Shown piece by piece: positions 3,650 to 37,142 of a stretch of 64,000 bases of DNA. The stretch is from Gammaproteobacteria bacterium (GTDB lineage: Bacteria; Pseudomonadota; Gammaproteobacteria; Pseudomonadales; Halieaceae). The stretch lies in the NCBI GenBank assembly GCA_024742415.1, contig JANSYN010000007.1, forward strand, positions 1-64,000, read 5' to 3'. A program made the translations under genes and the position numbers. Numbering within the stretch: the stretch's first letter is position 1; every line of letters begins with the position of its first letter. The notes beneath the pieces are model-generated. The model was not told the DNA's origin. It made no database searches and saw only the letters and a program-made list of their open reading frames with translations.

Positions 3650-3656
3650 CGGGATC

Positions 3657-13220: not shown

Positions 13221-16133
13221 GTGAATCAAGCACTTTACGCCCCCGGCGCAAGAGTCGTCATTCGAGACTGTGAGTGGATCGTGCGGCGCGCTGACGCCTG
13301 CGATGACGGCGGCTACGTACTCACGGTTGATGGACTCTCGGAGCTGGTGAGCGGCAAAAGCGCGCAGTTTCTCACCAGTCTGGAAGAACAGGCGGATGCC
13401 ATTCGCGTGCTGGACCCGGCCGAAACCCGGTTCGAGCAGGACCTGAGCCCCGGGTTCGAAAAAAGCCGCCTGTTTATCGAGACGCAATTACGCCAGATTA
13501 CCCCGGCAGACCAGCGCATTCACCTGGGCCACAGGGCGGCGATGGACGCGGTGCCCTACCAACTGGACCCGGCCCTGCAGGCGCTCAGGCAGAACCGCCA
13601 GCGGATTCTCATTGCCGATGCGGTGGGCCTGGGCAAAACCCTGGAAGCGGGCATCCTGATGACCGAACTCATGCGCCGGGGGCGGGGCAAGCGTATTCTC
13701 GTGCTCACCCTCAAAAGCATGATGACTCAGTTTCAGAAGGAAATGTGGAACCGCTTTACCATCCCGCTCACGCGGCTGGATTCCGCAGGTCTGCAGCGCG
13801 TGCGCAACAATATTCCGGGTAACCACAATCCCTTTTACTATTACGACAAGTCGATCATCTCCGTCGATACTCTCAAGCAGGACAACGAATACCGCCGTCA
13901 CCTAGAGCAGGCCTACTGGGACATCATCGTCATTGACGAGGCGCACAATGTGGCCGAGCGGGGTACCAGCTCACAGCGGGCCCAGCTGGCGCAACTCCTG
14001 GCCGGCCGCTCAGACACCTTGATCATGCTCTCCGCCACTCCCCACGACGGCAAGGCCAAATCCTTCGCCAGCCTGATGAACATGCTGGACCCTACCGCAA
14101 TCTCCGACCCGGAGGACTATAGCCGGGAGGATTTCCGCGACAAGGGGCTGGTGATCCGCCGCTTCAAGAAAGACATCCGTGACCAGGTTCAGCAGGAATT
14201 CAAGGAACGGGTGGTCAACGATATCTACCTTGATGCCTCACCGGAGGAGGAGGCCGCCTACCAGGCCTTGCTGGACGTGCCGTTTACCTATCGCGGCGAG
14301 CACAGCGCCGAGCGCAACGGCCAGCTGGTTCGCATCGGCCTGCAGAAATCCATTTTCAGCTCACCGGCGGCGGCTGGAGTGTCCGTGGAGCAGCGCATCA
14401 AGAAGCTCGCTGCTAAAGGGCAGCCCAGCGAGGACGAACGGCAGGAAATTGCAGCGCTCAATGCGCTGCTGCTCGCCCTGAGCAATATCACGCCGGAGCG
14501 TTTCAACAAATACCAGCAGTTGCGCAAGCTGCTGAAGAGCAAGGAATACGGCTGGAAGAAAACCAACACCGAAGATCGCCTGGTGATCTTCAGCGAGCGT
14601 ATCGAAACCCTCCAATGGCTGCACGGCCAGCTGCGGGGCGACCTCAAATTGAAAGACGATGCGGTGCAGATTCTCCACGGCGGCATGAGTGATATTGAGC
14701 AGCAGGACATCGTTGAGGCCTTTGGTAAATCCGAGTCCAGCTTGCGGGTATTGTTGTGTTCCGATGTGGCAAGTGAGGGCATTAACCTGCATTACCTCTC
14801 ACACCGACTGGTGCACTTTGATTTGCCCTGGTCGCTGATGGTGTTCCAGCAACGCAACGGTCGGGTAGACCGTTATGGCCAGACGTCAACGCCGATCATC
14901 ACCTACCTGATCAATCGTAGTGATAATCCCACGGTAAAAGGTGACCAGCGCATCCTGGAAATCCTCAAGGAAAAGGACGAGCAGGCCTACAAGAATATTG
15001 GTGACCCGGCCACGTTCATGAAGGTACACGACCCGAACGCCGAGGAGGAGTTGACTGCCGAGGCCATGGCTGCCGGCACCCGGGCCGAAGACTTCGATGC
15101 CAAATACGAGGCGGACGCCAGTAATGAGGGTGATGACCTGCTGGCCCTGTTCCTCAACCCCGAGGCTGCCCAGCCCAAAACGCCTGCAGAAGCCGAGCTA
15201 CACACCGTAGAGCGCTATAGCCTGTTTGCCAGCGATTACGAGTTTGCCCGCCAGGCCCTGGAGGCCATCAACCGCGAGCGTAAACAGGTGAGCTTCAGTG
15301 CCAATCGCGAGCGGCAGACTCTTACCCTGACACCGCCGGACGATCTGGAATACCGCTTCCGCTTCCTGCCGTCGGAAATCCAGCCGGAGAACGGCAGCCT
15401 GGTGCTGACAGCCGATAAAGCCCGCTTCGAGGATGAAATCCGTCGCAGCCGGCAGGATGAAAATGCCTGGCCCAAGCTGCATTATCTCTGGCCTCAGCAC
15501 CCCGCCATCCAGTGGCTGGAAGACAAACTGCTGGCCCAGGTGGCCCGCCACAGTGCCCCGGTACTGGCGCTGCCAGGCACCCCGGAGGTAAGCACCGTAC
15601 TGCCAGCCGGTGAGGCGGTATTTCTGGTTAGTGGCCTGATCCCCAATCGCAAGGCGCACCCGGTGGTCTGGCAGTGGTTCGCCATCCGCTGCGCAGGCGG
15701 CAGCGTGATCGAAGTGCTACCTGCGGAAAAATGGTTGCAGCAGTTGCAGTTGGATGACCAGCTGCCCAACCGCGGCGAGCCGGTGGATATTGCTGCCCTG
15801 GAGGCCTTGCGCCAGCCGGTGATTGCGGCCGTCAATACAGAAATGGCCGGTATTCAGGCGCAGTACAGCGCCGCCTGGCAGCCGCAACTGGACGCACAGC
15901 TTGCCAAGCTGCAGGCGCTCAAAAAGCGCCAGGTACAGCAACTCGACCTGCAACTGGGCCGCTCTGCCCAGGCCGAGCACTTCAAGGCTGCCCGCCGGGA
16001 GGAGCGTCTGCAGCATATCGAACGGGTCTTCCGGGACCACCAGACCTGGGTGCGGGACACCCTGAGCATTGAGCCGGTACCGTTTATTCAGATCGTCGCG
16101 GTGTTTACCCATGAACAAGGCCTCCGGGAGTGA
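13221..16133 (+). CDS. SNF2-family helicase/translocase of a DISARM-related defence array
   Basis: The 970-residue product has a complete SNF2/SF2 core. Motif I is DAVGLGKTLEAG (about 133-144), motif II is VIDEAHN (DEAH at about 239-242), motif III is LSATPHDGK, and motif VI is QQRNGRVDRYGQ (about 543-554). The C-terminal 350 residues form a charged, coiled-coil-rich extension. Size, architecture and the methylase directly downstream (9 bp) match the DrmD-type helicase of class 1 DISARM and relatives. The likely role is ATP-driven movement on DNA during recognition or blocking of phage DNA. The start is a GTG at 13221. This is the first gene of a long same-strand cluster. I cannot separate true DISARM from its relatives without phylogeny. 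Confidence 0.82.
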   Translation: MNQALYAPGARVVIRDCEWIVRRADACDDGGYVLTVDGLSELVSGKSAQFLTSLEEQADAIRVLDPAETRFEQDLSPGFEKSRLFIETQLRQITPADQRIHLGHRAAMDAVPYQLDPALQALRQNRQRILIADAVGLGKTLEAGILMTELMRRGRGKRILVLTLKSMMTQFQKEMWNRFTIPLTRLDSAGLQRVRNNIPGNHNPFYYYDKSIISVDTLKQDNEYRRHLEQAYWDIIVIDEAHNVAERGTSSQRAQLAQLLAGRSDTLIMLSATPHDGKAKSFASLMNMLDPTAISDPEDYSREDFRDKGLVIRRFKKDIRDQVQQEFKERVVNDIYLDASPEEEAAYQALLDVPFTYRGEHSAERNGQLVRIGLQKSIFSSPAAAGVSVEQRIKKLAAKGQPSEDERQEIAALNALLLALSNITPERFNKYQQLRKLLKSKEYGWKKTNTEDRLVIFSERIETLQWLHGQLRGDLKLKDDAVQILHGGMSDIEQQDIVEAFGKSESSLRVLLCSDVASEGINLHYLSHRLVHFDLPWSLMVFQQRNGRVDRYGQTSTPIITYLINRSDNPTVKGDQRILEILKEKDEQAYKNIGDPATFMKVHDPNAEEELTAEAMAAGTRAEDFDAKYEADASNEGDDLLALFLNPEAAQPKTPAEAELHTVERYSLFASDYEFARQALEAINRERKQVSFSANRERQTLTLTPPDDLEYRFRFLPSEIQPENGSLVLTADKARFEDEIRRSRQDENAWPKLHYLWPQHPAIQWLEDKLLAQVARHSAPVLALPGTPEVSTVLPAGEAVFLVSGLIPNRKAHPVVWQWFAIRCAGGSVIEVLPAEKWLQQLQLDDQLPNRGEPVDIAALEALRQPVIAAVNTEMAGIQAQYSAAWQPQLDAQLAKLQALKKRQVQQLDLQLGRSAQAEHFKAARREERLQHIERVFRDHQTWVRDTLSIEPVPFIQIVAVFTHEQGLRE

Positions 16134-16142: not shown

Positions 16143-19100
16143 ATGGCCATACAAGACACTGCCGCCACCTTCATTGGCCTTGCCAACGACAATGAATTCT
16201 TCAGCGCCCACTATCTCGCTGAGGTTTTTCAGGGCGATTTTGCCGATACCATCAAGGAGTGGGAGGCTCGCGAGGAGGCCGCAAAAGAGCAGGGCGCAGA
16301 CTACACCACGCCCCACCGCGCCCTGCGCAATCTCAACCAGCGCTATTTCGCCCTGCGCCACACACTTAAATCCGAGCGCAACGCGGCCGAACGCATCCGC
16401 CTGCAGCGCGAGTTTTTTCAGGCGCTTGTGGCCGTTTTCGGCATCCCCTGGCAGGCGCAGAACCGCGAGGTTGCCCCGCATACCGAATTGCCCGTGCTGG
16501 CTGCCCTCGGTGACCAGCTCTGGGTGCTGGGGGCTTTGGATACCAACAATGAGGGCGAAGACCCTCTCTCCCTGGAGCTGCACAGCAACCAGTTCTTCGG
16601 CCCCGGCCCGCACCACGACAAACTGAAGAACACGAGCTGGTACAGCATTCTCAACGAGGCCGTTTTCCGTCAGTCCACTCCCCATAACGAGAGCCCGCCC
16701 CGCTGGGTACTCCTGCTCTCCGACCGCCAGGGCATTCTCATTGATCGCTACAAGTGGTCGCAGAACCGCATGCTGCGCTTCGACTGGGAAGAAATTCTCG
16801 GCCGCCGCGATGACAAAACCCTGAAGGCCACGGCGGTACTCCTGCACCGGGAAAGCCTGGCGCCAGACGAGGGCCAATGCCGCCTCGACAGCCTGGACGA
16901 GAACAGCCACAAACACGCCTTTGCGGTATCCGACGATCTCAAGTACGCCCTGCGCCAGGCCATCGAACTGCTGGGCAACGAAGCGGCCGAGCAGCTCATT
17001 GAGCAGGCGCGGGAGCGTAAAGAGGGGATTTACACCGGCCAGAACGCACTGGAGGCGGACCAGCTCTCCAGGGAGTGCTTGCGCTACATGTACCGCCTGC
17101 TGTTCCTGTTCTACATTGAAGCGCGGCCGGAACTGGGCTACCTGCCGGCCAGTGACGAAACCTGGCGCCGGGGCTACAGCCTGGAGAGCCTGCGAGATCT
17201 GGAAAGCGTGCGGCTGACCACTGAGGAAAGCCGGCGGGGCCGCTATTTCCATGCGAGCCTGCAGCGCATGTTTGGCCTGATCTACGCAGGCAACGAGCGC
17301 CGCCGCCAGGCCGATCATTACCATGAAAGCGTCGCCAATGCCTTTACCCTGCAGGGGCTGGACAGCCACCTGTTCGACCCGGCCAAAACCCCGCTGCTCA
17401 ACCGCGTGGTATTCAGCAACGCAACCCTGCAGCAGGTGATTCAGAGCATGTCGCTCACCCGCCCCACCAGCGGCCGCAGGCGTAGGGGCCGGGTGAGTTA
17501 TACGCAACTCGGCATCAACCAGCTCGGTGCGGTGTACGAGGCCCTGCTCAGCTACCGTGGCTTCTTCGCCATTGAAGACCTGTACGAAGTCGCCCCCAAA
17601 GGCCAGAACATCAACCCGGACGAGCTGGACACCGGCTACTTTGTTACCCGCGAGCAGCTCGAGGAATTCAACGACAACGAGCGCGTGTACGACAAGATTG
17701 ATGGTAGCAAGCGCCTGCGCATCCACCCCAAAGGCAAGTTTATCTACCGTATGGCGGGCCGGGACCGGGAAAAGAGCGCCAGCTACTACACCCCTGAAGT
17801 GCTCACCAAAAGCCTGGTGAAATACACCCTCAAGGAACGCCTGACGGACGACGTAACGGCAGACGACATTCTCAACCTCACTATCTGCGAGCCCGCCATG
17901 GGCAGCGCCGCGTTCCTGAACGAAGCCGTCAACCAGCTTGGCGAGGCCTATCTAACCCTGAAACAGCAGGAACTTGGCCAGCGCATCCCCCATGAAGACT
18001 ACCAGCGTGAACTGCAGCGGGTAAAAATGCACATCGCCGACCACAACGTGTTCGGGGTAGACCTCAACCCCATCGCCGTGGAACTGGCGGAAGTGTCCCT
18101 GTGGCTGAACGCCCTTAGCGGTGGCCACAACGTCCCCTGGTTCGGCTACCAGTTGTTCACCGGCAACAGCCTGATCGGCGCCCGCCGCGAGGTGTACCCC
18201 AAAATTGCGTTGAAGAAGCAGGCCAAAGAAGGCCTCTGGTACAACCACGCCCCGCGCCGGCTGAACCCGGAAACCCTGCTGAGCCCGGCGGGCGAGGGCG
18301 GCCGCAGTGGCAACGACATTTACCACTTCCTGCTGCCCGACCCCGGCATGGCCGGCTATAAAGACAATGTAGCCAAACAACTGCGGCCGGATGCCTTCAA
18401 GCAGATAAAGGTATGGAAAAAAGACTTCTGCGCCCCGCTGGACGAGGCCGAGATCGGCATCCTGCAAAGCCTGAGTAGCGCGGTAGACCGCCTGTGGCGC
18501 GAGCACACGCAAATGCTCGCCCAACACCGCCGACGCACCGAAGATACCTACCCCCTTTGGGGGCAGCAGGGTGTGGAGGAATACCATACGTCCACCCACG
18601 AGAAGGACGCCCTGCGCAACCACGGCATTTTCAACACCAACGCGCGCATGGCCTCGCCTTACCGGCGCCTGAAGCTGGCCATGGACTACTGGTGTGCCCT
18701 CTGGTTCTGGCCGCTGGACAAGGTAGACCAACTGCCCGACCGCCAGAAATGGCTGTTCGACCTGAACACCATCCTCAACAGCGCCGGCACCTTTGATTTC
18801 GCCCCCCAGCAGGAAAGCCTGCTCGATAGCGGTTCAGACTTACAAGATGGCTCGCAGCAAGACCAGGGCGATACATTCGTCAAACCCATCGAGGATCTCT
18901 TCGCCGCCGAAGCGCCCCAGCCAAGCCTGCGTGAAGAAACCGCCGCTGTTCGCGAGGTCAGCAACCAGCGTGGCGAACTCAACCTGGAAAAATTGTTCAA
19001 GAACCCCTTCTTCAACACCCTGGCCATCGCCAACGAGCTGAGCGAACACTACCGCTTCTTCCACTGGGAACTGGCCTTCGCCGATGTGTTTGCCCAGCGC

Positions 19101-21113
19101 GGCGGCTTCGACATCACCCTGGGTAACCCGCCCTGGCGCAAGGTGGAGTGGCAGGAAGGCGGCATTCTGGGTGACCACAACCCGGCCTTCGTACTGCACA
19201 AACTCAGCGCCAAACAACTGACCGATGAGCGTGAAGCGGCCTTTGCGCGCAGCCCGCAATTGGAGCAGGCGTGGTTTGATGAGCTGGCGGAGGCGGAAGG
19301 CTCACAGGCGTTCCTCAATGCCACCCAGAACTACCCGCAGCTGAAAGGTGTGCAGACCAATCTGTATAAATGCTTTCTGCCCCGGGCCTGGGCTAATGTG
19401 AACGAGAAGGGCGTGAGTGGCTTCCTGCATCCGGAAGGGATTTACGATGATCCCAAGGGTGGGGGATTCCGGCGTGAGATTTATCGGCGTTTGCGGGCGC
19501 ACTTTCAGTTTCAAAACCAGCGGATGCTGTTTCCAATTGGCCACCGCGTTAAGTTCAGTACAAATGTATATGGCCCGGTACGTGACGTTCCCAGCTTCAA
19601 CAACATCGCGAACCTGTTTGTGCCTCAAACCATTGATGCGGCTTTTGCACATGATGGGCTGGGGCTGGTTGGTGGTATCAAAGATGAAGAGACTGGCGAC
19701 TGGAACCAAGTGGGTCACCGCGACCGCATTATCGTAATCGGCCAGCACGAACTGGCGCTGTTCGCCCAGCTCTACGACGAAGCCGGCACCGACGCTCTGG
19801 AAGCCCGCCTGCCGGCACTGCATGCCCGGCAGCTCACCGACGTACTGGAAAAATTCGCCGCCCAGCCCCGCCGACTGGGGGATCTGAAAGGGCAGTATCT
19901 GTCACTGGAAATGTGGCACGAAACCAACGCCCAGAAAGACGATACCATCAAACGGGAAACCCGTTTCCCGGAAAACCCGGAGCAATGGATACTCTCCGGC
20001 CCTCATTTCTACGTCGGCAGCCCGCTCTACAAAACCCCGAGGGCGGTCTGCACCGAGAAAGGCCATTACGACATCCTCGACATGCAAACCATGCCGGACG
20101 ACTATCTTCCTCGAACCAACTACATCCCCGCCTGCGACCCCGCCACCTACCGCGACCGCACCCCGCGCGTGCCCTGGGTGGAACAGGGCGAGCATCGGGA
20201 GCGGTTGGTGACGAAGTATTATCGGTTGGTTAATCGTGAGATGGTCGGGACTTCATCAGAGCGAACACTGATGACCACCATCGCTCCGAAAGGTGTAGGT
20301 CATATCCACACTTGTTTAAGCACGATATACAAGAACGATAGGGATCTATTGGATCTGTTCTGCTACACGGTTTCGATTCCGCTGGATTTCCGCGTGAAGA
20401 GCACAGGTGTTGGACATGTAAACAAGTCCCTTCTTAATCAGCTGCCTTTGCTCAGTGATGCATATTATCGACCGGCGTTGCATGCCCGTGCTTTGTCCTT
20501 AGTCAGCGTCACTAATCGGTACGACGACCTCTGGCAATCCAACTGGCAAGACACCTTCCGCCAACAACAATGGGCCACCCGCGAACCCATCGCCGCGCTT
20601 CCGCAGGACTTTTTCTTAGAACTCACCCCCGAGTGGCAACGCAACAACGCCCTGCGCACCGACTACGCCCGCCGGCAGGCCCTGGTGGAAATCGACGTCC
20701 TAGTCGCCCAGGCCCTCGGCCTCACCCTGGAAGAACTGCTCACCATCTATCGCGTCCAGTTCCCCGTGATGCGCCAGTACGAAGCCGACACCTGGTACGA
20801 CCAAGCCGGTCGCATCGTCTTCACCCCCAGCAAAGGCCTGGTGGGCGTTGGCCTGCCGCGCAAGGCCCGCAACAGCGACTTGGGCGACGGCACCCACTAC
20901 GCTATTCAGGCAGGCGCCCGGCAGGAACAGGGTGTCGCCCTTGGTTGGGAAGACATCCAGCACCTCACTGGCGGCACCGTCAGCAAAACCTTCATGGATG
21001 ATACGCTGCCGGGCGGCCCCACCGAGCGCACCGTTGAATATAGCGCACCGTTCTTCCGCCCGGATCGGGAGGCCGATTATCGAGTGGCATGGGAGATATT
21101 CAGCCGTGACTGA
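16143..21113 (+). CDS. Very large Eco57I/PglX-like adenine DNA methyltransferase
   Basis: This 1656-residue protein carries an N6-adenine methylase core. The SAM motif region is CEPAMGSAAFLNEAV (about 580-595), followed by FGVDLNPIAVELAEVSLWLN, and the catalytic motif is NPPW (about 994-997). The ~500 residues before the core and ~600 after it are expected to give target recognition and partner contacts. Proteins like this modify host DNA in DISARM (DrmMI) and BREX (PglX) systems. No separate nuclease or PLD-type DrmC is adjacent. It is 9 bp after the SNF2 gene, and its end overlaps the next small gene by 8 bp. DNA and codon use are GC-rich here compared with the genes at 21.6-28.5 kb. Confidence 0.85.
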   Translation: MAIQDTAATFIGLANDNEFFSAHYLAEVFQGDFADTIKEWEAREEAAKEQGADYTTPHRALRNLNQRYFALRHTLKSERNAAERIRLQREFFQALVAVFGIPWQAQNREVAPHTELPVLAALGDQLWVLGALDTNNEGEDPLSLELHSNQFFGPGPHHDKLKNTSWYSILNEAVFRQSTPHNESPPRWVLLLSDRQGILIDRYKWSQNRMLRFDWEEILGRRDDKTLKATAVLLHRESLAPDEGQCRLDSLDENSHKHAFAVSDDLKYALRQAIELLGNEAAEQLIEQARERKEGIYTGQNALEADQLSRECLRYMYRLLFLFYIEARPELGYLPASDETWRRGYSLESLRDLESVRLTTEESRRGRYFHASLQRMFGLIYAGNERRRQADHYHESVANAFTLQGLDSHLFDPAKTPLLNRVVFSNATLQQVIQSMSLTRPTSGRRRRGRVSYTQLGINQLGAVYEALLSYRGFFAIEDLYEVAPKGQNINPDELDTGYFVTREQLEEFNDNERVYDKIDGSKRLRIHPKGKFIYRMAGRDREKSASYYTPEVLTKSLVKYTLKERLTDDVTADDILNLTICEPAMGSAAFLNEAVNQLGEAYLTLKQQELGQRIPHEDYQRELQRVKMHIADHNVFGVDLNPIAVELAEVSLWLNALSGGHNVPWFGYQLFTGNSLIGARREVYPKIALKKQAKEGLWYNHAPRRLNPETLLSPAGEGGRSGNDIYHFLLPDPGMAGYKDNVAKQLRPDAFKQIKVWKKDFCAPLDEAEIGILQSLSSAVDRLWREHTQMLAQHRRRTEDTYPLWGQQGVEEYHTSTHEKDALRNHGIFNTNARMASPYRRLKLAMDYWCALWFWPLDKVDQLPDRQKWLFDLNTILNSAGTFDFAPQQESLLDSGSDLQDGSQQDQGDTFVKPIEDLFAAEAPQPSLREETAAVREVSNQRGELNLEKLFKNPFFNTLAIANELSEHYRFFHWELAFADVFAQRGGFDITLGNPPWRKVEWQEGGILGDHNPAFVLHKLSAKQLTDEREAAFARSPQLEQAWFDELAEAEGSQAFLNATQNYPQLKGVQTNLYKCFLPRAWANVNEKGVSGFLHPEGIYDDPKGGGFRREIYRRLRAHFQFQNQRMLFPIGHRVKFSTNVYGPVRDVPSFNNIANLFVPQTIDAAFAHDGLGLVGGIKDEETGDWNQVGHRDRIIVIGQHELALFAQLYDEAGTDALEARLPALHARQLTDVLEKFAAQPRRLGDLKGQYLSLEMWHETNAQKDDTIKRETRFPENPEQWILSGPHFYVGSPLYKTPRAVCTEKGHYDILDMQTMPDDYLPRTNYIPACDPATYRDRTPRVPWVEQGEHRERLVTKYYRLVNREMVGTSSERTLMTTIAPKGVGHIHTCLSTIYKNDRDLLDLFCYTVSIPLDFRVKSTGVGHVNKSLLNQLPLLSDAYYRPALHARALSLVSVTNRYDDLWQSNWQDTFRQQQWATREPIAALPQDFFLELTPEWQRNNALRTDYARRQALVEIDVLVAQALGLTLEELLTIYRVQFPVMRQYEADTWYDQAGRIVFTPSKGLVGVGLPRKARNSDLGDGTHYAIQAGARQEQGVALGWEDIQHLTGGTVSKTFMDDTLPGGPTERTVEYSAPFFRPDREADYRVAWEIFSRD

Positions 21114-21417
21114 AACAACAACGAGAAACTGCCCATGGGGTTATTCCTGCAAGAAGACCTGGGAGAGCCTGCAATCCACACGGGAAGAAGGAGTGCGGTT
21201 TTGTGGCGATTGTCAGAAGGAAGTTTTCTGGGTGGGGAGCCAGGAGGAACTGGCGGCGAAAGTCATGCTCAATCGCTGTGTCTGCTTCAGTTCCAGTTTA
21301 CTAGGGCCTGAGGTGGCCGACGAAGAGTCGGTAGTGCTTCTGGTTGGCTCAGTCGATTCATCTTACGAGTACGGCGCTGCGCCGAAAGATAAGGTCGACG
21401 ATGACTTTCCTTTTTAG
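21106..21417 (+). CDS. Small four-cysteine (zinc-ribbon-like) protein
   Basis: A GTG at 21106 overlaps the methylase stop by 8 bp and opens a 103-residue frame. Cys9-x5-Cys15 and Cys33-x2-Cys36 (FCGDCQKEVFWV) form a probable zinc-binding knuckle pair. An acidic tail follows, with another CVC near residue 60. I do not recognise a named family, although similar short proteins with a KTWESL-like motif before a CxxC pair are common hypotheticals. Tight coupling to the methylase suggests a linked function, but the small size could also mean it is a passenger. Confidence 0.62.
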   Translation: MTETTTRNCPWGYSCKKTWESLQSTREEGVRFCGDCQKEVFWVGSQEELAAKVMLNRCVCFSSSLLGPEVADEESVVLLVGSVDSSYEYGAAPKDKVDDDFPF

Positions 21418-22554: not shown

Positions 22555-22555
22555 A

Positions 22556-23257
22556 ATGCCAGTTGAGATAGTTACTGGGAACATATTTACCAGCCGAAGC
22601 CAGACTCTGGTCAATACAGTCAACTGCGTCGGCGTAATGGGCGCGGGTATCGCATTGGAGTGCCGACTCCGTTATCCCGGGATGTATGAAAAGTATCTGG
22701 AGCTTTGTCAGAAAAAGCAGTTGGATGTCGGTCTGTTGTGGTTGTATAAGACCGAGCAACGCTGGGTCCTGAACTTTCCCACCAAGAAACATTGGAAGCA
22801 TCCATCCCGGGAGGAGTATTTGCGTAGTGGCCTTGAAAAGTTTATAGAAAGCTACGTCAGCAGGGGTATTACATCAATCGCTTTTCCGCTGCTCGGTGCC
22901 GACAAGGGCGGTATAGCGAAGTCTGTAAGCCAGGCAATAATGCTCGAATACCTTGGCGATCTGGATATTCCTGTCGAGATTTATCGCTACGACCCGAGCG
23001 CAGAGGATGAAGTGTTTAATCGTTTCAAGGCGCGTCTTAGGTCGCTGGGTAGCGATCAGGCGTGCAAGTTTACGGGAATCAAAAGGCCACAAATGCAAGC
23101 GCTGATCGAGGGGTTGAATAACGAAAAAATCTGCCAGGTTAATCAACTGCTTGGCATTGAGGGTGTTGGTCTGGCAACTGTGGAGAAAGTGTTCCGTATA
23201 GCAATGGATACACAGCAGATCGAGAGCGGTGCAGATAGCATGCGGCTGTTTGACTAG
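22556..23257 (+). CDS. darG: DarG-type macro-domain antitoxin (DNA ADP-ribosylglycohydrolase)
   Basis: The ATG at 22556 follows the toxin stop with a GGAG site and gives 233 residues. The macro domain (residues 1-155) has VTGNIF, NTVNCVGVMGAGIAL, NFPTKKHW and FPLLGADKGG, all close to DarG/TARG1-type macro domains that remove ADP-ribose from thymidine. The C-terminal 75 residues are helical and shorter than in the longer DarG proteins, in which that part also binds DarT directly. Here neutralisation may therefore rely more on enzymatic reversal. The C-terminal LLGIEGVGLATVEK segment resembles a helix-hairpin-helix DNA-binding element. Confidence 0.85.
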   Translation: MPVEIVTGNIFTSRSQTLVNTVNCVGVMGAGIALECRLRYPGMYEKYLELCQKKQLDVGLLWLYKTEQRWVLNFPTKKHWKHPSREEYLRSGLEKFIESYVSRGITSIAFPLLGADKGGIAKSVSQAIMLEYLGDLDIPVEIYRYDPSAEDEVFNRFKARLRSLGSDQACKFTGIKRPQMQALIEGLNNEKICQVNQLLGIEGVGLATVEKVFRIAMDTQQIESGADSMRLFD

Positions 23258-23310
23258 TCAACGATGATATGGGGTAAGCCCCGCGTTTTAAACGTTTTGG
23301 AGAATACCAG

Positions 23311-28582: not shown

Positions 28583-28591
28583 GGTGCTTAA

Positions 28592-31500
28592 ATGATTCCC
28601 GGCCTGCTCGCCAGTGAAATCGCCGCCGCGTTACGCGAGTTCATCGTCACCGGCTTCGAGACAGAAACCTCACCGTTCAAGGGCGAGTTTCAGCGTCTGG
28701 TGGAAGAGCAACAGGAGGGTGAGGCCTTCATTAAGGGTCCGTACCTGCATATTGGCCTGCCTTTTTTGGCCGGCCAGTCTGGTACAGATTTTTTTCCCGA
28801 ATTTCATACCGAGTTCCCGCCCTTCGTTCACCAGGAGCAGGCCTGGCGGCGCCTGGCATCCGACCGCCAGCCTGCCAACACCCTGGTGGCCACTGGCACT
28901 GGCTCAGGCAAGACCGAGTGCTTTCTGTACCCACTGCTGGACCACTGCCGGCGGCAGGCAGGGGCGGGCATCAAGGCAATTATCATTTACCCCATGAACG
29001 CCCTGGCCACCGATCAGGCGAAACGGTTCGCCCAGGTGATTCACAGCCAGGCGGCCCTGAAGGGCTTGCGGGTTGGTCTGTTTGTGGGTGGCGATGCACA
29101 CGGCAGTAAGGTGATGTCGGCCGAAATGGTTGTAACCGACAAGACCAGCCTGCGGGCAAACCCCCCGGACGTGTTGCTCACCAACTACAAGATGCTCGAC
29201 TATCTGCTGATGCGGCCCAAGGACCAGCCGCTGTGGGCGCACAACGGCCCGGATACTTTGCGCTATCTGGTGGTCGATGAGCTACACACTTTCGATGGCG
29301 CCCAGGGCACCGATTTGTCGCTGTTGATTCGTCGCCTGCGAGCGCGGTTTGACCTGCAGCAGGACCAACTGATCTGCGTGGGCACTTCCGCAACGCTGGG
29401 GGGTGAGCAGAGCGTATCCGGCCTGCTGGATTACGCTTCGGATATTTTTTCCAGCCCCTTTCGCCGCGATGCGGTGATCACTGAACAACGCGTCAGTGAC
29501 ACCGATTTCCTGGACAATATCGCTTACCTCAATCCCAATCCGGACATTGGCCCGGAAGAGTTGCAGATAGCGCTTCAGGAAAGCCTGGCCGCCTACCTGG
29601 ACAAGGCCTACGAACTCTATTTCTGCGCCGCGTCAGAACAGGATTTGATGACCATGCCTGGCCGTATTGGCCTCGGGAGGTCACTGAAGCAGCACGGCCA
29701 ACTGGCCAACTTGTTGCGCCAGTTGAAGCCCGACCAGCGTACACCCCGACTGCAGGAACTGGTGGCACGCCTGGCGGCGATGGTGCCCAGACGCTTTGAG
29801 CGGCAGCCAGAGCAGGCGCTCATTGCCTTGCTGGCATTGCTGGCGCATGCGCGCGCAGATACGGGGCTACCGTTTGTGCAGTTGCGCTTGCAACTCTGGT
29901 CCCGGGAATTGCGCCGCATCGTTGGCACCTTGCGAGAGCCGGCAGCCACGGAGTTGGCCGTTACGGAGGAGGCCGCCGATCATGAGCCGGCCCAGCGTCC
30001 ACAGCCGCTGCTGTCCTTCGGTGACGATCAGCCCCTCAAGGGCCACAAACAAATCCGTCTGCCGCTGGTGCAGTGCCGGGAGTGTCACGGCACCGCCTGG
30101 CTGACTCGAATGGAACAGGGGCATGCCGCGGATCAAGTGGTCGAGTCAGATCTGGGCGCCATCTATCCGGCCTTCTTTGCTCATCATCCGGAAACCAGCC
30201 TGCTGATGCCCTGGCAGGATGGGCAACGCCAGTCATCGGGCGGGATGCACCTGGAACACTTTCGGGTCTGTCGGGATTGTGGCAAGACAGCGGCGGTCGA
30301 CTACGGTGGCGATTGCAGGAGCTGCCAGGCGGGCAATGACGCGCTGGTGCGGGTCTCCAGGCCGCGCCTGCTCAAAGAAGTGAAGCGGGGCAATGTGAAC
30401 CGCGTGGTGCACGAGCACAATTGCCCCTGGTGCGCTGCTACTTCTGCCCTGGTGGTGTTTGGTGCCCGGGCTGCGAGTTTGAGTGCTGTGGCCATCCACC
30501 AGTTATTCAGCAGCCGCGACAACGATGACCGCAAGCTGCTCGCTTTCAGTGACTCGGTGCAGGACGCCACCCACCGGGCGGGTTTTTTCGCGGCCCGCAC
30601 CTGGCAGAACAATATCCGCATGGCTCTGGCCCAGTTCCTGGAGGCTCAGGTAGAGCCGGTGCCGCTGTTACAACTGGCCACGATGTTCGAGGCCTGGTGG
30701 TTGCAACACGGTGATAGCCACGGGCGGCTCAGCTTGCCACGTTATCTTCGCGAATTTATGCCGCCCGATAAACGTTACCGCGGCGATTTCGAGTATTTCG
30801 AACAATCAGGCAGCGTACAGGCGCCCGAGCCTCTGCTGAAGCTGATTCGCGAGCGCATCCTCTGGCAGGCGCTGGAGGATCTCAGCTGGCGTTCCCAGGT
30901 GGGTCGTTCCCTGAATCGCGTGGGTATCGCCGCACTGGATTGGCCGCAGGACAGTGTCCGCGCCGCGGCTGCAGCGTGGAGGGAAACGGTAGACAATGCA
31001 CTTGGTTACCGCATTGACCCGGAGGCCGCTGCGGGCTTTATGCACGGTCTGATGCAGCACCTGGTTTATCTGGGTGCGCTGGGCCTGGAGGACCTGCAAA
31101 GCTACCGCCAGAAATCCGGTAAGGCCTTTTTGCTCAGCTATTTGTCTTACACTCCCGCAATCGGGCCTAATTCTGCTCGGCCCCGTTATCCGGCCGCCGG
31201 CAAGGGGGAGGGCTTCGAGTCGCTTCAGGGCAGCCGCGGGCAGTCCTGGTATGCGCGCTGGCTGGCCTGTCTGAACCCCGGCACCCTCGTAGACAACAAT
31301 CAGCTCGAGCAGGTGCTTGCTGCCAGCTTGCGGGCTCTGTGCGATGTTGATCTGGCCAGGGAAGAGACGAGCGAGCGCGGCGCCTCGCTGTGGGCATTGA
31401 GGCCGGATCAGTTGAGCGTTACCACCTCTGTGCAGGCGGTGGAATGTCCAGGTTATCGACCCCTGCATGTGCCGGTCAGCCAGGCAGACCACTGGCCTGG

Positions 31501-34500
31501 CTTGCCCCTGTTGGGCGCCTCCCGACCAGACCGGGTGTATACGCACCCGCTGCCAGTGCGGGATTCCCTCTATCGCGATCTCTATCGTTTCGGGGAAATC
31601 CACCGGGTCATTGCCCATGAACACACCGGTCTGCTTGCGGCCAGTGAGCGGGAGCGGGTAGAAAACAGCTTCATACACGGTAGCAAGCCCTGGGAATACA
31701 ACCTCCTTTCGGCTACACCCACCCTGGAGATGGGCATCGATATTGGCAGTTTGTCCAGTGTGCTGCTCTGCTCGGTGCCCCCGGCCCAGGCCAACTACCT
31801 GCAGAGGGTGGGTCGTGGCGGCCGTCGGGATGGCAATGCTTTCGTTCTCACTGTGGCCAACGGTCGCCCTCACGATCTGGTGTTCTATTCCGACCCCGGC
31901 CGCATGCTGGATACCCCAGTGGAGCCACCGGCGGTGTTCCTCAAGGCCCGTCACGTATTGCGCCGACAGTTGCTGGCCTATGCCATGGATTGCTGGACGC
32001 GTTTCGCCAAGGGCGACAACCAGATTCCGGCTACCATGCAACCGGTGCTGGATGCCGTGGAGAAGACCAGGGAAGACACTTTTCCCTACACGCTGTTGTT
32101 CTTCCTCAAACACAACATGCAGGAAATCTGGGAGGGTTTCACGCGTCATGTGGCCACAGAATTGAGCGAGGAAGACAATGAATTGTTGCGCCAGTACCTG
32201 TTCGGCGGCCCGCAACATCCGGACGACCATCTGCAGCTTTACCTGCTGGGTCGCCTGAAACTGGTGGCGGACGAACGCCAGCGCATGGCAGCCACCATCG
32301 CCCGCCTGGACAAGCAGCTCACCGCCCTGCGTTTGAAGCCCCAGGATGATCACACCCAAGAGGAGCTTGCTGAACTGGAGCGAGAGGCGGCCGGTTACCG
32401 CAGTCTGCGCATTCGGCTTAACAAGCGCGAGACTCTGAACTTCTTCACCGACGAGGGCCTGCTGCCCAATTACGCGTTTCCGGAGGAGGGTGCCACGTTG
32501 CACTCTGTGATTTTTCGCTCGGAGAAGTCGGCCAGCGCGGGGGAAGGGGCAGAACGTGAGTTCATCAAGCGGGAGTATGAGTACCAGCGGCCAGCGCAGG
32601 CGGCCTTGACTGAGCTGGCGCCGGAGTCGGTGTTTTATGCGGGTAATCGTCGGGTGCAGATATCCCGCGTGGAAACCGCGCGGGGCCGCAACATTCAGGA
32701 CTGGCGTTTTTGCCCGCGCTGCCACTATTCCGCCGCAGCGGATGACCCCACTGCTGGCTATTCCGACCACACCTGCCCGCGCTGCCAGACGATTCAGTGG
32801 AGCGATGCCAGTGCCAGCACAAAAATGCTGAAAATGACCCAGGTGTACGCCTTCACGCGTGCAAAGGACGCCCAGTTGGATGATCGCTCCGATGACCGCG
32901 AGCCGGTTTTCTTCAACAAGCAGATGCTGATCGATTTCAAGCCCACGGACATCAGCATTACCTGGGTACTGGATGACCAGGAGCGCCCGTTCGGCTTTGA
33001 ATTCATCCGCTCCGCTAATTTTCTTGAAGTGAACTTCGGCCGTCGCGACGGTGAGGAGCTGTTCTTCGACGTGGCTGGCGAACAATTGCAGCGCGCTGGT
33101 TTTCCTATCTGCAGGGAGTGTGGCTCAGTGCAACCGCGACGCGGCGACGCGCAACACCTCAAGAGCTGTAGCTTTTCCCGGGGTGAGAAAACTCTGGCCA
33201 ATGGCAAGCAAGACAGCGGTATTGAAAATTGCCTGTATCTGTACCGTCAGTTTTCCTCCGAGGCGCTGCGGATCCTGTTGCCGCGTTTGGCGACAGGTGG
33301 CACCGAAGAACAAGTGAACTCTTTTGTGGCGGCCCTGCAACTGGGGCTGAAGCGACGCTTCGGTGGTAGAGTGGATCACTTGCGTGTAGCGCATCAGAGC
33401 GAGCCCGTCGGAGCGGGAGACGAGCGCCGTCATTTTATTGTGCTTTACGACTCGGTGCCCGGCGGTACCGGGTATCTGCATGAGTTGCTCAGCAAGGCCG
33501 AGCATATGCAGTCGGTGTTTCGTATGGCCTATGACGTGATGCTGGCCTGTGAGTGCTATCAGGGCACTATGGATGGCTGCTATCGCTGCCTACTGGAATA
33601 TCGCAATGCCTATGGCATGGAAAGCACCAGCAAGGCGCTGGCTCTGGAAATGCTTAAGGATATCGTCGAGAACCAGCAACCTTGGGTGCAGAAGGAGCAA
33701 TCGCTCAGTGCCCTCAGCGGCAACCCCTGGATGGGCAGTGAGCTTGAGGTCCGCTTCCCGGAAGCGCTGGCAAAATTTTCCGGCCATGACTGCGTGGGAC
33801 AGCAGAAGGTTCGCGTGTCCCAGGATGTGGTGCGAGGCAAGCATGGATTTCGCCTGACCCTGGGTGATGTGGCGTACGAAGCAGAACCTCAGGTGAATCT
33901 GGGTGCGGGGCAGGGCGTGCAATTTGCGAGTTGTCCGGATTTCGTGCTGTGGCCCGTGCGTGCCGGCTTGCAGCCGGTGGCGATCTTTCTCGACGGTTAT
34001 CAATACCACAACAAGAGTAGCAGCGCGGATCTGCTCAAGCGCCAGAGCCTCATGCGAGCGGGGTTTGTGGTTTGGACCCTGAACTGGTTCGACATAAATC
34101 AGGTGCTGGGTGACAAGGCCATGGATGTGCCACTGCCATCCGGTATGACGTCATCGGAGAACAACCACGCGGCGATCACCCGCCTGGCGCAGCAGTGCGG
34201 TGTCACCCGGCATGCTCAGCACCTGAACAAAACGACCTTTGAGCTGTTGCTGTACTTTCTGGCCGAACAGGACGCAGAGGAGCTGGCGCAACAGGCTGTG
34301 TTTTTTGCGCTGCAGTGCCTGCCTGCTCACTCTCTTGCCGACCCGGCAGTCAAAGCCAGGATACTGGACGGTCTTCCAGCGCTGCCCGCCGCCTTCACCG
34401 ATCTACGCCCCTCCGAGGTGGCCATGGCCGGCGCGGTGGAACTGCATGACGACCTTGCTGCGGCTACAGTTTCTCTCGACCTGTTGGCTGGCCCGGAACT

Positions 34501-35023
34501 GTTACAGGCGTTTGATCTTACTGCTGTCATGCTTACCCTGTGTTACGACCTGCGCCAGGGCAGTGAAAAAGCAGCCCGCTATCAGTGGCAGCGCTTCTGG
34601 GCAGCGGTGAACTTCCTGCAATTCCTTCCGCGGTTCTATGCCTTCACCCCGCAATCGCTAAATGACGGCACCGCGGCGGGCCTGCTGTGGCCCGCACCAG
34701 GGCCCTCAGAGTCGGATGACGCGAGCGGCGGTGCTGAGCCGCAGTGGTACGGGCTGCTTGACAGGGCGGTGGCCGACGCATTGCGTACCCGAGCGCTGCA
34801 GTGGCCAAGCGCGCCGATGGTCGGAGAAGAAATCATGGATGCTAGCGAAGCGGTAATCGGGCAAGCGGAGCTGCTCTTTGCCGCAGAAAAGATTGCCTTC
34901 CTGCTGGAAGACGTTCCAGACCAGTTAGCCGCAAGGCCCCATTTGGAAGCAGATGAGTGGCGGGTGTGCACGACGGTTGAGGCACTGACTGTCGCGATCA
35001 ATGAACTGAATTCAGGAGCCTGA
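28592..35023 (+). CDS. Giant DUF1998 (YprA-type) DEAD-box helicase with nuclease-like tail
   Basis: This 2143-residue protein has an SF2 helicase core split by a long insertion. TGTGSGKTE is motif I (about 101-109), VDELH is motif II (Asp229-His232), TSATLGG is motif III, and SATPTLEMGIDIG with QRVGRGGRRDG (about 1071) is the second RecA domain. Several Cys pairs suggest zinc ribbons (CRECHG, CRDCG, CPRCHY...CPRCQ). DUF1998 follows at about 1600-1680 (YDSVPGGTGYLHEL; ACECYQGTMDGCYRC). Downstream, PDFVLWPV and IFLDGYQYH (about 1782-1805) with a later VWTLNW look like a PD-(D/E)xK/Vsr-type nuclease fold. The size and fusion resemble DruE of Druantia and the YprA helicases of DISARM-related arrays. 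It is probably the central phage-DNA-processing motor of the island. Confidence 0.85.
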   Translation: MIPGLLASEIAAALREFIVTGFETETSPFKGEFQRLVEEQQEGEAFIKGPYLHIGLPFLAGQSGTDFFPEFHTEFPPFVHQEQAWRRLASDRQPANTLVATGTGSGKTECFLYPLLDHCRRQAGAGIKAIIIYPMNALATDQAKRFAQVIHSQAALKGLRVGLFVGGDAHGSKVMSAEMVVTDKTSLRANPPDVLLTNYKMLDYLLMRPKDQPLWAHNGPDTLRYLVVDELHTFDGAQGTDLSLLIRRLRARFDLQQDQLICVGTSATLGGEQSVSGLLDYASDIFSSPFRRDAVITEQRVSDTDFLDNIAYLNPNPDIGPEELQIALQESLAAYLDKAYELYFCAASEQDLMTMPGRIGLGRSLKQHGQLANLLRQLKPDQRTPRLQELVARLAAMVPRRFERQPEQALIALLALLAHARADTGLPFVQLRLQLWSRELRRIVGTLREPAATELAVTEEAADHEPAQRPQPLLSFGDDQPLKGHKQIRLPLVQCRECHGTAWLTRMEQGHAADQVVESDLGAIYPAFFAHHPETSLLMPWQDGQRQSSGGMHLEHFRVCRDCGKTAAVDYGGDCRSCQAGNDALVRVSRPRLLKEVKRGNVNRVVHEHNCPWCAATSALVVFGARAASLSAVAIHQLFSSRDNDDRKLLAFSDSVQDATHRAGFFAARTWQNNIRMALAQFLEAQVEPVPLLQLATMFEAWWLQHGDSHGRLSLPRYLREFMPPDKRYRGDFEYFEQSGSVQAPEPLLKLIRERILWQALEDLSWRSQVGRSLNRVGIAALDWPQDSVRAAAAAWRETVDNALGYRIDPEAAAGFMHGLMQHLVYLGALGLEDLQSYRQKSGKAFLLSYLSYTPAIGPNSARPRYPAAGKGEGFESLQGSRGQSWYARWLACLNPGTLVDNNQLEQVLAASLRALCDVDLAREETSERGASLWALRPDQLSVTTSVQAVECPGYRPLHVPVSQADHWPGLPLLGASRPDRVYTHPLPVRDSLYRDLYRFGEIHRVIAHEHTGLLAASERERVENSFIHGSKPWEYNLLSATPTLEMGIDIGSLSSVLLCSVPPAQANYLQRVGRGGRRDGNAFVLTVANGRPHDLVFYSDPGRMLDTPVEPPAVFLKARHVLRRQLLAYAMDCWTRFAKGDNQIPATMQPVLDAVEKTREDTFPYTLLFFLKHNMQEIWEGFTRHVATELSEEDNELLRQYLFGGPQHPDDHLQLYLLGRLKLVADERQRMAATIARLDKQLTALRLKPQDDHTQEELAELEREAAGYRSLRIRLNKRETLNFFTDEGLLPNYAFPEEGATLHSVIFRSEKSASAGEGAEREFIKREYEYQRPAQAALTELAPESVFYAGNRRVQISRVETARGRNIQDWRFCPRCHYSAAADDPTAGYSDHTCPRCQTIQWSDASASTKMLKMTQVYAFTRAKDAQLDDRSDDREPVFFNKQMLIDFKPTDISITWVLDDQERPFGFEFIRSANFLEVNFGRRDGEELFFDVAGEQLQRAGFPICRECGSVQPRRGDAQHLKSCSFSRGEKTLANGKQDSGIENCLYLYRQFSSEALRILLPRLATGGTEEQVNSFVAALQLGLKRRFGGRVDHLRVAHQSEPVGAGDERRHFIVLYDSVPGGTGYLHELLSKAEHMQSVFRMAYDVMLACECYQGTMDGCYRCLLEYRNAYGMESTSKALALEMLKDIVENQQPWVQKEQSLSALSGNPWMGSELEVRFPEALAKFSGHDCVGQQKVRVSQDVVRGKHGFRLTLGDVAYEAEPQVNLGAGQGVQFASCPDFVLWPVRAGLQPVAIFLDGYQYHNKSSSADLLKRQSLMRAGFVVWTLNWFDINQVLGDKAMDVPLPSGMTSSENNHAAITRLAQQCGVTRHAQHLNKTTFELLLYFLAEQDAEELAQQAVFFALQCLPAHSLADPAVKARILDGLPALPAAFTDLRPSEVAMAGAVELHDDLAAATVSLDLLAGPELLQAFDLTAVMLTLCYDLRQGSEKAARYQWQRFWAAVNFLQFLPRFYAFTPQSLNDGTAAGLLWPAPGPSESDDASGGAEPQWYGLLDRAVADALRTRALQWPSAPMVGEEIMDASEAVIGQAELLFAAEKIAFLLEDVPDQLAARPHLEADEWRVCTTVEALTVAINELNSGA

Positions 35024-35024
35024 A

Positions 35025-37142
35025 ATGGTCAGCGTCGCTTTTTCCGATAAGTATTTCAACAGTCTGCTCAAGCTGACACCCAACGAGCAGAGCCAGGCCA
35101 ACAAAGCAGTGATGCTTTTTCAGCAGGACCCGCGTCATAGTGGTTTGCACTACGAAAAGCTCACCGCCTTCAAGGACGACAAGCTGCGTTCGATTCGCGC
35201 CAATCAGGATGTGCGCATCATTCTCGCGGCAGCGGAACAGGAAGATCTTTACCTGATGTTGCATGTAGACCACCACGAAGCAGCTTATCAGTGGGCAGCC
35301 AAGCGCAAAGTAGAGGTAAATCCCAATACTGGCAGCGTGCAGGTGTTCACTGTGGAGGAAACAGCGCTGACGGCGGATGCCAACAGCCAGCAGGCTGCCC
35401 CACAGCCCGGCCTGTTCGACACGATCCGTGACCGGCAGTTGTTGCAGTTGGGTGTGCCCGAGGATGCCCTTGCGGTAGTCCGGGTCATTAAAACCGAGGC
35501 TGACCTGGAAAATGCGCGGGATGCGGAGCAGATTCCTCCTGATGCCTACGAAGGCTTGTTTATGTTGATGGCCGGAGCCAGTTTTGAGGAGGCCTACAAC
35601 GAAGTTGTGCCCACTGCGCCCGAGTCGGTAAATACCGGGGACTTCAGCGCGGCCCTGGCCCGCCCAGAGTCTCAGGCGCATTTTGCAGTCGCGGAGAATG
35701 AAGAGGAACTTCAGGCCGTTCTTAATCAATCTATCGAGAAATGGCGGGTTTTTCTGCATCCCACCCAGCGGCGACTAGCGGAGGGTATCAAGAACGGCCC
35801 GGTACGGGTGTTGGGTGGTGCTGGCACCGGTAAAACCGTGGTGGCCATGCACCGCGCCAAGTGGCTGGCGGAAGAGGTAGCTACACGAGAGAGCAAGGTG
35901 CTGTTTACTACCTTCACCCGTAACCTGGCGACTGATATCCAGCAAAACCTTAACAAAATTTGCTCACAGGAGGCGCTCCAGCGCATCGAGGTGATCAACC
36001 TGGATGCCTGGGTGGTGAGCTTTCTGAAAAAGCGTGGCTACGACTATGGATTACTGATGGACAGCCGCGAAGAAAAACGACTGTGGGAGCAGGCTTATTC
36101 TGAAAAATCAGCCAGCCTGGATCTGAGCATAGCGTTTTTTCAAGAGGAGTGGGCGCGGGTGGTCCAACCCCAGTCAGTGGATAGTGTGGAGGCTTACAAA
36201 AAGGCCTCCCGTATTGGGCGTGGTACGCGATTGAATCGGCAGCAGCGGGTTGATATCTGGCCTGTATTCGAGCGCTACCGGCACCTCCTGGCCAGCAACT
36301 ATCTGAAGGAGTCGGATGACGTATACCGGGATGCGCGCCACCTGCTGGAAAATGAGCCAGCGTTGCGGCCTCCTGTATGCTCAGTCATTGTGGACGAGGC
36401 CCAGGATATGGGTACGCAGGCCTTCATGCTGATCCGCGCCCTGGTTCCGCCCGGCCCTAATGATCTCTTTATTGTAGGCGATGGCCATCAGCGTATTTAC
36501 GGCAAAAACCGGGTGGTGCTGGGCCAGTGTGGTATTGATATCCGCGGACGTAGCGCCCGCCTCAAGGTGAACTATCGCACTACAGACGAAACCCGCAGGG
36601 TGGCGGTCAGCATCCTTGAAGGGGTGCCGGTAGACGACCTCGATGGCGGTGAGGACAACCAGACGTTTTACCACTCGCTGATGCACGGTCCGGTCCCGGA
36701 GGTGCGCTGCTTCGGATCGCCCGATGAACAGGTCGAGCACATTCTCGCTGCTTTGGATGAGCACTCCCTTGCCCCGGAAGCCTGCTGCGTAATAGCGCGC
36801 ACCCGCAAAGCGGTGACCGAACTTCAGAGCCTGCTGGAAAGCCGTCAGCAAGCATGCCATGTACTTGATGGGCGCAATGCCAGCACACCGGAAGGCGCCC
36901 TGAATCTCGCTACGATGCACCGTGTCAAGGGGTTAGAGTTTGACGCCGTGTTTGTTGCTTCCGTTAACAAGGGGCTGATACCTCTTGATTACCTGTTGGA
37001 ATCCGCCGCCGATCCGGTGACCCGGCGGCAGCGGGAGAACGAGGAGCGCGCGCTGTTGTATGTGAGCCTGACCCGTGCGCGCAAGTTGGCCTATGTATAC
37101 GGTTATGGTGTGATGAGCCCTTGGTTTGAAAGTAGCCAATAG
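35025..37142 (+). CDS. UvrD/Rep-type helicase with N-terminal RelE/ParE-like domain
   Basis: In this 705-residue protein, residues 1-95 look like a RelE/ParE toxin fold (VAFSDKYFNSLLKL, YEKLTAFKDDKLRSIRAN, DVRIILAA, HVDHHEAAYQWAAKR). Residues ~245-700 are an SF1 UvrD/Rep helicase: GGAGTGKTVVAMH (about 264), VIVDEAQDM (about 454-462), KVNYRTTDETRR, TMHRVKGLEFDAVFVA (about 630), and LYVSLTRARK. The start is one base after the previous stop, so coupling is very likely. Such fusions recur in mobile defence loci. Whether the RelE-like part cleaves RNA, binds the ribosome or only binds protein is unknown. This is the last gene of the island. Confidence 0.8.
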   Translation: MVSVAFSDKYFNSLLKLTPNEQSQANKAVMLFQQDPRHSGLHYEKLTAFKDDKLRSIRANQDVRIILAAAEQEDLYLMLHVDHHEAAYQWAAKRKVEVNPNTGSVQVFTVEETALTADANSQQAAPQPGLFDTIRDRQLLQLGVPEDALAVVRVIKTEADLENARDAEQIPPDAYEGLFMLMAGASFEEAYNEVVPTAPESVNTGDFSAALARPESQAHFAVAENEEELQAVLNQSIEKWRVFLHPTQRRLAEGIKNGPVRVLGGAGTGKTVVAMHRAKWLAEEVATRESKVLFTTFTRNLATDIQQNLNKICSQEALQRIEVINLDAWVVSFLKKRGYDYGLLMDSREEKRLWEQAYSEKSASLDLSIAFFQEEWARVVQPQSVDSVEAYKKASRIGRGTRLNRQQRVDIWPVFERYRHLLASNYLKESDDVYRDARHLLENEPALRPPVCSVIVDEAQDMGTQAFMLIRALVPPGPNDLFIVGDGHQRIYGKNRVVLGQCGIDIRGRSARLKVNYRTTDETRRVAVSILEGVPVDDLDGGEDNQTFYHSLMHGPVPEVRCFGSPDEQVEHILAALDEHSLAPEACCVIARTRKAVTELQSLLESRQQACHVLDGRNASTPEGALNLATMHRVKGLEFDAVFVASVNKGLIPLDYLLESAADPVTRRQRENEERALLYVSLTRARKLAYVYGYGVMSPWFESSQ

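Follow-up and report, generated by a model that had tools for sequence, protein, structure and literature searches.

Type II ARMADA of E. coli is a four-gene defence system in which, according to Bell et al. 2025 (PMC12458937), all four arm genes are required for a non-abortive defence, and single deletions abolish protection while the cells stay viable. Zorya II and Druantia III were described beside this operon (PMC12458937), and ZorE of E. coli introduces nicks into DNA (Wu et al. 2026, PMC13192584). It is also known that one defence can be embedded in another: DarTG2 is found between the hsdS and hsdR genes of a type I restriction system (PMC12255303), nuclease effectors lie inside BREX loci (PMC12839542), and PrrC lies inside type I loci (PMC12629846). 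We analyzed a stretch of 64,000 nucleotides (hereafter the window) from a Halieaceae member of the Gammaproteobacteria (contig JANSYN010000007.1). From sequence comparison we conclude, with a probability of roughly 0.88 for the joint reading, that positions 13221-37142 form an ARMADA type II operon and that the junction between armB and armC (armB|armC) is a preferred, recurrent loading site for other defences in ARMADA II, a cargo slot that here holds DarTG, Zorya II, and PDC-S27. As in the three embedded cases, a second complete defence lies between genes of a first; here, however, ARMADA II serves as the host and armB|armC as the site, and one of the embedded effectors, ZorE, shares a C-terminal domain (the tail) with the host helicase, ArmC. 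Whereas Zorya II stands beside the operon in Bell et al. (PMC12458937), it lies between armB and armC in the window. ARMADA II, Zorya II, and DarTG are already known, as are defences embedded in others; the locus varies this last theme in a new way, and the tail is its most testable lead. Neither the armB|armC slot nor the ArmC-ZorE tail homology is mentioned in the available portions of Bell et al. (PMC12458937) and Wu et al. (PMC13192584), a scope that excludes supplements, and no title or abstract opening naming either came up in a literature search with partial coverage of preprints.

The core comprises four genes in the order armA-armB-armC-armD, all on the + strand, and this order, read from the open reading frames (ORFs), is unchanged by the cargo that interrupts it (aa, amino acids):

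13221..16133, + strand: armA, SNF2/RapA (BrxHII/DrmD-like) helicase, 970 aa; ORF, Pfam SNF2-rel_dom and Helicase_C, PADLOC DrmD/BrxHII-like
16143..21113, + strand: armB, PglX/DrmMI-like DNA methyltransferase, 1656 aa; Pfam Eco57I methylase (Eco57I/N6-type), PADLOC DrmMI/type IIG-like
28592..35023, + strand: armC, YprA/DUF1998 helicase, 2143 aa; Pfam DEAD, Helicase_C and MZB (MrfA Zn-binding), PADLOC DruE-like
35025..37142, + strand: armD, RelE/YoeB-fold domain (about residues 1-110) and UvrD/GajB-like helicase, 705 aa; Pfam UvrD, PADLOC GajB-like

The same four genes, order, domains, tested catalytic residues, and RelE-like ArmD domain characterize ARMADA type II (PMC12458937). Product lengths agree closely between the E. 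coli O55 operon and the window (952/970, 1644/1656, 2113/2143, and 704/705 aa), and pairwise identity is 51% for ArmA, 56% for ArmB, 38% for ArmC, and 44% for ArmD. Pairwise alignment revealed that all eight residues mutated in E. coli ARMADA II are kept: ArmA K139 and D239 align with E. coli K136 and D236, ArmB G587 and N995 (NPPW) with G605 and N971, ArmC K107 and D229 with K110 and D234, and ArmD K270 and D457 with K266 and D454. In a tree of 102 YprA proteins built with FastTree, which included no named type I reference, 90 ArmC including that of E. coli formed a single clade (support 100; the tree was not bootstrapped and its outgroup branches are long), with window ArmC inside a six-member subclade (support 100). 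Chance is ruled out for family matches this long and strong, and we read the core as an additional member of ARMADA II.

An original prediction, made by a model from the letters alone, had described four large proteins of 970, 1656, 2143, and 705 residues on one strand and applied the name ARMADA and the phrase 'missing link', both of which occur in Bell et al. 2025 (PMC12458937). The ORFs open at exactly the positions listed above, all on the + strand, and the proposed DISARM-like pair of SNF2 helicase and methylase was recovered by PADLOC. The helicase is, as predicted, a single DruE-sized YprA protein, and the search agreed with the predicted lack of a PLD-type DrmC: no DrmC or PLD family was among the PADLOC families listed for nine locus proteins, nor in Pfam, and no DrmB was among those PADLOC families either. 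DISARM shares with the window a SNF2 helicase and a methylase of the DrmD/DrmMI kind (DrmD model score 366 bits, below the NCBIfam cut-off of 610), but is defined by separate DrmA and DrmB, usually with DrmC, whereas the window has one YprA protein. Druantia III is defined by DruE together with DruH; no DruH was among the PADLOC families listed for the nine proteins, and the helicase partners in the window are ArmA, ArmB, and ArmD. The RelE-UvrD gene, in contrast to its description as an added component, is the standard ArmD of type II by size, order, residues (K270 and D457), and predicted RelE fold. Residues 1-240 of ArmD gave a predicted fold with a mean pLDDT (predicted local distance difference test) of 93.6 and a Foldseek match to RelE/YoeB toxins (probability 1.00, best E 3.8e-4); the RelE part had no Pfam match at 1e-3. 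Across 46 sequences, W90 is invariant, and conservation reaches 90% or more at E44, R58, R64, H84, and Y88.

The internal cargo, so far noted only as such, was identified by PADLOC and Pfam; its 7.5 kb between armB and armC encode DarTG (DarT and DarG), Zorya II (ZorA2, ZorB2, and ZorE2), and PDC-S27, which is a candidate ATPase:

21115..21417, + strand: small Cys-rich frame, Zn-ribbon-like by eye, between armB and darT; start codon ambiguous
21631..22554 (ORF opens at 21625), + strand: darT, single-stranded DNA ADP-ribosyltransferase with hydrophobic N-terminus; Pfam DarT 4.8e-36
22505..23257 (start uncertain), + strand: darG, macro-domain antitoxin; Pfam Macro, PADLOC DarG 3.4e-49
23311..25005, + strand: zorA (type II); PADLOC ZorA2 1e-199
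25002..25709, + strand: zorB (type II); PADLOC ZorB2 1.6e-100
25706..26830, + strand: zorE (type II), HNH nickase, tail domain at the C-terminus; PADLOC ZorE2 1e-136
27113..28582, + strand: PDC-S27, ATPase_2 and DUF234 protein, final gene of the cargo, 9 bp 5' of armC; PADLOC PDC-S27 2.9e-231, Pfam

Both named systems are complete, with a DarT ADP-ribosyltransferase followed by a macro-domain DarG, and with zorA-zorB-zorE including the HNH nuclease; their NCBIfam scores lie below the cut-offs (DarT 116 of 150 bits, DarG 160 of 250, ZorE 320 of 600). Of the 12 ZorE residues that Wu et al. name, 11 are the same as in E. coli, the exception being S in place of E99. G+C is 0.49-0.51 over 22-28 kb, compared to 0.55-0.62 in surrounding windows. 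The Cys-rich frame has a 60% identical counterpart at the equivalent position in genome G023 and is otherwise without a good match in our database of junction loci (described below), and a promoter/terminator scan of 20900-28700 found sites no more frequent than in shuffled sequence. DarT of the window (21631-22554) carries a hydrophobic N-terminal stretch, MEWIIGLLIVGWLVSVF, and a long linker ahead of the catalytic domain, both kept in G023 (L005, 12217-13134); it is possibly a membrane-anchored variant.

To place this arrangement among relatives, ArmC loci were collected by a genome search, a contig scan (546 confirmed candidates, of which the best 80 were kept, a choice that favours relatives of the window), viral contigs (19 loci, six with ARMADA II), and one E. 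coli locus, and their junctions were measured by script. A gap of more than 500 bp separated armB from armC in 34 of 64 loci, compared to 1 of 46 for armA|armB and 3 of 80 for armC|armD (Fisher test with loci treated as independent, 1.4e-9 and 6.8e-12, respectively). Where all three junctions were measured (n = 42), such gaps numbered 21, 1, and 1. The count leaves out the window, the duplicate G148r, one armA|armB value (L061, split ArmA match), and junctions past contig ends; armB was not found in 25 loci, and the look-alike pairs L089/L096, L097/L098, and L047/L087 were kept. The L079 gap was measured from a copy of the armB end, the full slot being about 9.9 kb. Among evenly drawn genomes of the class, four of five measurable loci, all within the 64, carried cargo (G222, G311, G439, and G385; not G148). 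Phylum genomes from a scan for the tail had 1.3-1.5 kb at the junction in two of five measurable loci (L210 and L211; not L209, L213, and L214); these loci had no 95% match to those of the junction database, and L212 was too short to measure. Cargo presence changed at least 20 times on the ArmC tree, gains and losses pooled, with G033 labelled cargo-bearing though its armB falls beyond the contig end.

The occupants are diverse. All six members of the window's ArmC clade carry cargo, each a different one (armB of G033 lies off the contig). G023 has a 537-aa protein (PDC-M72B/M09A-like), DarTG, and Zorya II; G033 has Zorya I (ZorB, ZorC, and ZorD seen), RmrA, and an 87% identical PDC-S27 immediately 5' of armC; Amphritea (L034) has Zorya II with dynamin-like, YjcZ-like, and patatin proteins; Stutzerimonas kunmingensis (L035) has LeoB-like and dynamin-like proteins; and a Granulosicoccaceae locus (L080 = G222) has two short nameless ORFs. 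Outside this clade, we identified Hachiman (HamA and HamB, L079), Gabija (GajA and UvrD, L093), and a Mokosh-like system (L040). There were 177 cargo ORFs of at least 75 aa, and 106 of at least 150 aa after omission of the window, L098, L096, L105, L076, and L066; 83 proteins were tallied, including two from L074 (armB not found) and four from G033. LeoA/LeoBC, AbiE, HEC-01, AbiL, and PDC-M07 were among the 25 of 378 families listed in this tally. When 20 hand-picked cargo proteins were scanned singly, 14 matched PADLOC at 1e-5 and six did not, so that a preferred loading site of ARMADA II could be mined for unknown systems. Zorya II also occurs around the operon: immediately upstream of armA in G148, and divergent and outside the operon in E. 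coli O55. In G390, a tailed ZorE sits immediately 5' of armC, and armB lies beyond the contig end.

How cassettes enter is suggested by a few cases. The slots of G311, L113, L049, and L079/G439 contain copies of the armB 3' end; L073 resembles a broken armB instead. In G339, a genome not listed for ArmC by the class search, an armB-like gene is represented by its final ~90 codons, including the stop, at most ~42 bp ahead of zorA of a Zorya II. Because such copies sit in or beside a few cassettes, we infer that cassettes may travel with the armB 3' end and enter by homologous recombination close to this conserved end. The G339 region (L205, 7865-13446) holds the armB remnant, Zorya II with a tailed ZorE, and a GmrSD-type gene, adjoined by amino-acid-kinase and alanyl-tRNA-synthetase genes.

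Several points weigh against the overall reading. Copies of the armB end occur in few slots, and none in that of the window. The cargo label is clustered on the ArmC tree (2 of 500 shuffles as low), and therefore the loci are not independent. Finally, the E. coli operons lack armB-armC cargo yet function (Bell et al., PMC12458937), so the cargo is optional.

The second result concerns the C-termini of ArmC and ZorE, for which two features were defined:

26567..26812, + strand: ZorE tail domain, C-terminus of ZorE, homologous to the ArmC tail
34736..34987, + strand: ArmC tail domain, C-terminus of ArmC; 68.5 bits

The last ~85 residues of both proteins are homologous (hhalign 99.2% over 81 columns), and a profile of ArmC C-termini matched the end of all five ZorE tested with 55-68 bits. 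On profile evidence, the two tails are one homologous domain. The tail is present in 77 of 80 complete ArmC (not L076, L101, and L103); as the profile was built from the same C-termini, independent support comes from the ZorE and PADLOC matches. The PADLOC ZorE2 model matched the tail region with 46 bits in a DrmB, with 38.5 bits in a TmtA, and with 38 bits in a 209-aa protein that L110 encodes between armC and armD. Further ZorE carry the tail in G641, G603, G647, G812, G339, and G390 and lack it in G627 and G519. A GmrSD-type protein 3' of armD in L059 (Pfam GmrSD_N) gave a weak tail match of 20.7 bits. Wu et al. (PMC13192584) described an extra C-terminal ZorE region in 53 of 59 Druantia-associated leaves and left it unassigned; this region is probably the tail described here. 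In contrast to that case of Zorya II-Druantia III synergy, the ZorE tail of the window is homologous to the ArmC C-terminus, and the tail was not detected in the one E. coli DruE and one DruH tested.

The tail is frequently followed by ArmD. The ArmD N-terminal part was found in 18 of 370 class genomes, and in all 11 scoring above 100 bits ArmD lies 3' of a tail-bearing gene, which is ArmC in nine (G000, G148, G181, G222, G268, G311, G385, G439, and G440), TmtA in G196, and DrmB in G455. No tail was found within 7-20 kb around ArmD of G402 (100 bits) and eight remoter ArmD-like loci, some of them second copies. Six further non-ZorE matches from the phylum tail scan were all ArmC with ArmD adjacent. 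Among 67 ArmC loci with downstream room, 65 had tail and ArmD, one had neither (L076), and one had the tail alone (L068); this co-occurrence arises mostly because ARMADA itself holds both. Outside complete ARMADA, the tail sits on ZorE (G812), TmtA (G196), or DISARM DrmB (G455), each immediately 5' of an ArmD-type gene and each in one genome. In G812, from the phylum sample, ZorE lies 77 bp upstream of ArmD, and the 40 kb read there contain none of armA, armB, and armC. G455 (L188, 3063-10923) carries, in order, a DISARM-like DrmA, DrmB with C-terminal tail, and an ArmD-type RelE-UvrD gene; in G196 (L181, 4461-11516), a sacsin/NO VEIN-type TmtA with C-terminal tail is immediately followed by an ArmD-type gene. 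A 1060-aa UvrD-type helicase in G307 (L206, 9719-12901) has the tail fused at its own C-terminus.

From these neighborhoods we infer that the tail may couple effectors to ArmD, serving as an adaptor for an SF1-type helicase, which would be ArmD in the genomes that have it. A broader version is tentative and, in our judgment, rather doubtful: the tail would be a portable plug for ArmD, usable by ArmC, ZorE, DISARM DrmB, TmtA, and perhaps a GmrSD-type nuclease, and ARMADA II would be a chassis that recruits slot-loaded defences into one response. An alternative that we hold at slightly under even odds is that the tail is an inactivated Vsr-type or DNA-binding domain common by descent, makes no contact with ArmD, and is adjacent to it by operon history. 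Inactivated Vsr and EEP domains end many type II YprA proteins (Bell et al., PMC12458937), the ZorE C-terminal region was termed nuclease-like (Wu et al., PMC13192584), and G641, G603, G647, and G339 have a tailed ZorE and no ArmD match at 1e-6. Descent alone fits less well with three unrelated proteins (ZorE in G812, TmtA in G196, and DrmB in G455) that bear the tail immediately 5' of ArmD, with no armC in the stretch read, and with the fusion to a UvrD helicase in G307. Coupling to ArmD, for its part, has to accommodate that the tail sequence had no PDB match, that the best fold match of the ArmC C-terminal model, TnsA, was not significant (E 0.024), and that no stable ZorE-Druantia complex was reported in Wu et al. 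2026 (PMC13192584). The four genomes with tailed ZorE also rule out that the tail always occurs with ArmD, and because of them the tail cannot serve ArmD alone. No ArmD match at 1e-6 was found in G307 or the fragmented genome G390 either, and G519, whose ZorE is tailless, carries a distant ArmD-like gene (80 bits). Tailed ZorE without ArmD might, speculatively, use a host partner, an idea raised because Zorya II and Druantia III depend on RecD/RecBCD (Wu et al. 2026, PMC13192584).

A likely mechanism would run as follows. ArmB would mark host DNA, while ArmA, a SNF2/RapA motor, and ArmC, a YprA motor with a C-terminal nuclease, would engage phage DNA that is unmodified or structured, with ArmD (a RelE fold on a UvrD helicase) as partner of ArmC. 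Zorya II would add a layer that responds via ZorAB and nicks via ZorE, and DarTG would serve as an abortive back-up. The shared tail might let ZorE use the partner or DNA intermediate of ArmC, the best candidate being ArmD. The tail is in this sense a molecular candidate for the cooperation of Zorya II with YprA-helicase systems, and its presence on a ZorE, DrmB, or TmtA protein would predict pairing with an ArmD-type helicase.

Regarding the slot itself, armAB and armCD could be loosely joined units with a seam through which anything drifts without functional meaning. In favor of this, the YprA gene of type I ARMADA usually stands ahead of the other two (Bell et al., PMC12458937), and L076, L105, and L066 have 10 kb 5' of armC in which no armB was found. 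However, armB and armC overlap or lie at most 5 bp apart in 18 of 30 cargo-free loci; they are thus tightly coupled without cargo, and therefore insertions split an operon. The content likewise argues against drift, with 14 of the 20 chosen proteins matching PADLOC and 89 of 96 cargo ORFs of at least 150 aa co-directional with the operon (window included), and we regard a mere seam as improbable. Still less credit is due to plain defence-island clustering, in which cargo landed by chance and merely interrupted the operon. Defence islands are common, and in all 35 of 35 loci cargo G+C is lower than that of armC, by 0.06 on average (window included), as for foreign DNA; but insertions favor armB|armC over the other two junctions, and the six members of the window clade all bear cargo, each different. 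The weakest alternative, a core-defined new subtype of ARMADA, DISARM, or Druantia, which the original prediction had considered, could point to the 38-56% identity to E. coli and the PADLOC name DruE for the ArmC-like protein, but is hardly tenable because order, sizes, tested residues, and ArmC clade match E. coli type II, with no DrmB/DrmC among the families listed: a YprA tree of the kind it had proposed as a check unites window and E. coli ArmC, and the gene order is already published, so a new subtype is not supported for the core genes.

The flanks of the operon offered one candidate attachment site:

37745..37821, - strand: tRNA-Met, 3' end facing the operon, downstream of armD

Integration at this tRNA was considered and rejected, as no second copy of its 3' end was found in the 64-kb window at up to 3 mismatches, and a search with right-flank DNA in 37 related genomes returned mostly short scattered matches. 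Between armD and tRNA-Met (about 37343-37720) lie tandem degenerate repeats, by eye encoding the end of an ISL3-like transposase, and parts of this flank match many sites in the window genome and its relatives. On the other side, 5' of armA, a short ORF (12475-12789) resembles by eye a truncated IS6-family transposase and had no Pfam match at 1e-3. Further upstream (1952-7210), an HlyD-type gene follows a pair of ABC transporter genes that include membrane regions, an arrangement resembling a type I secretion operon.

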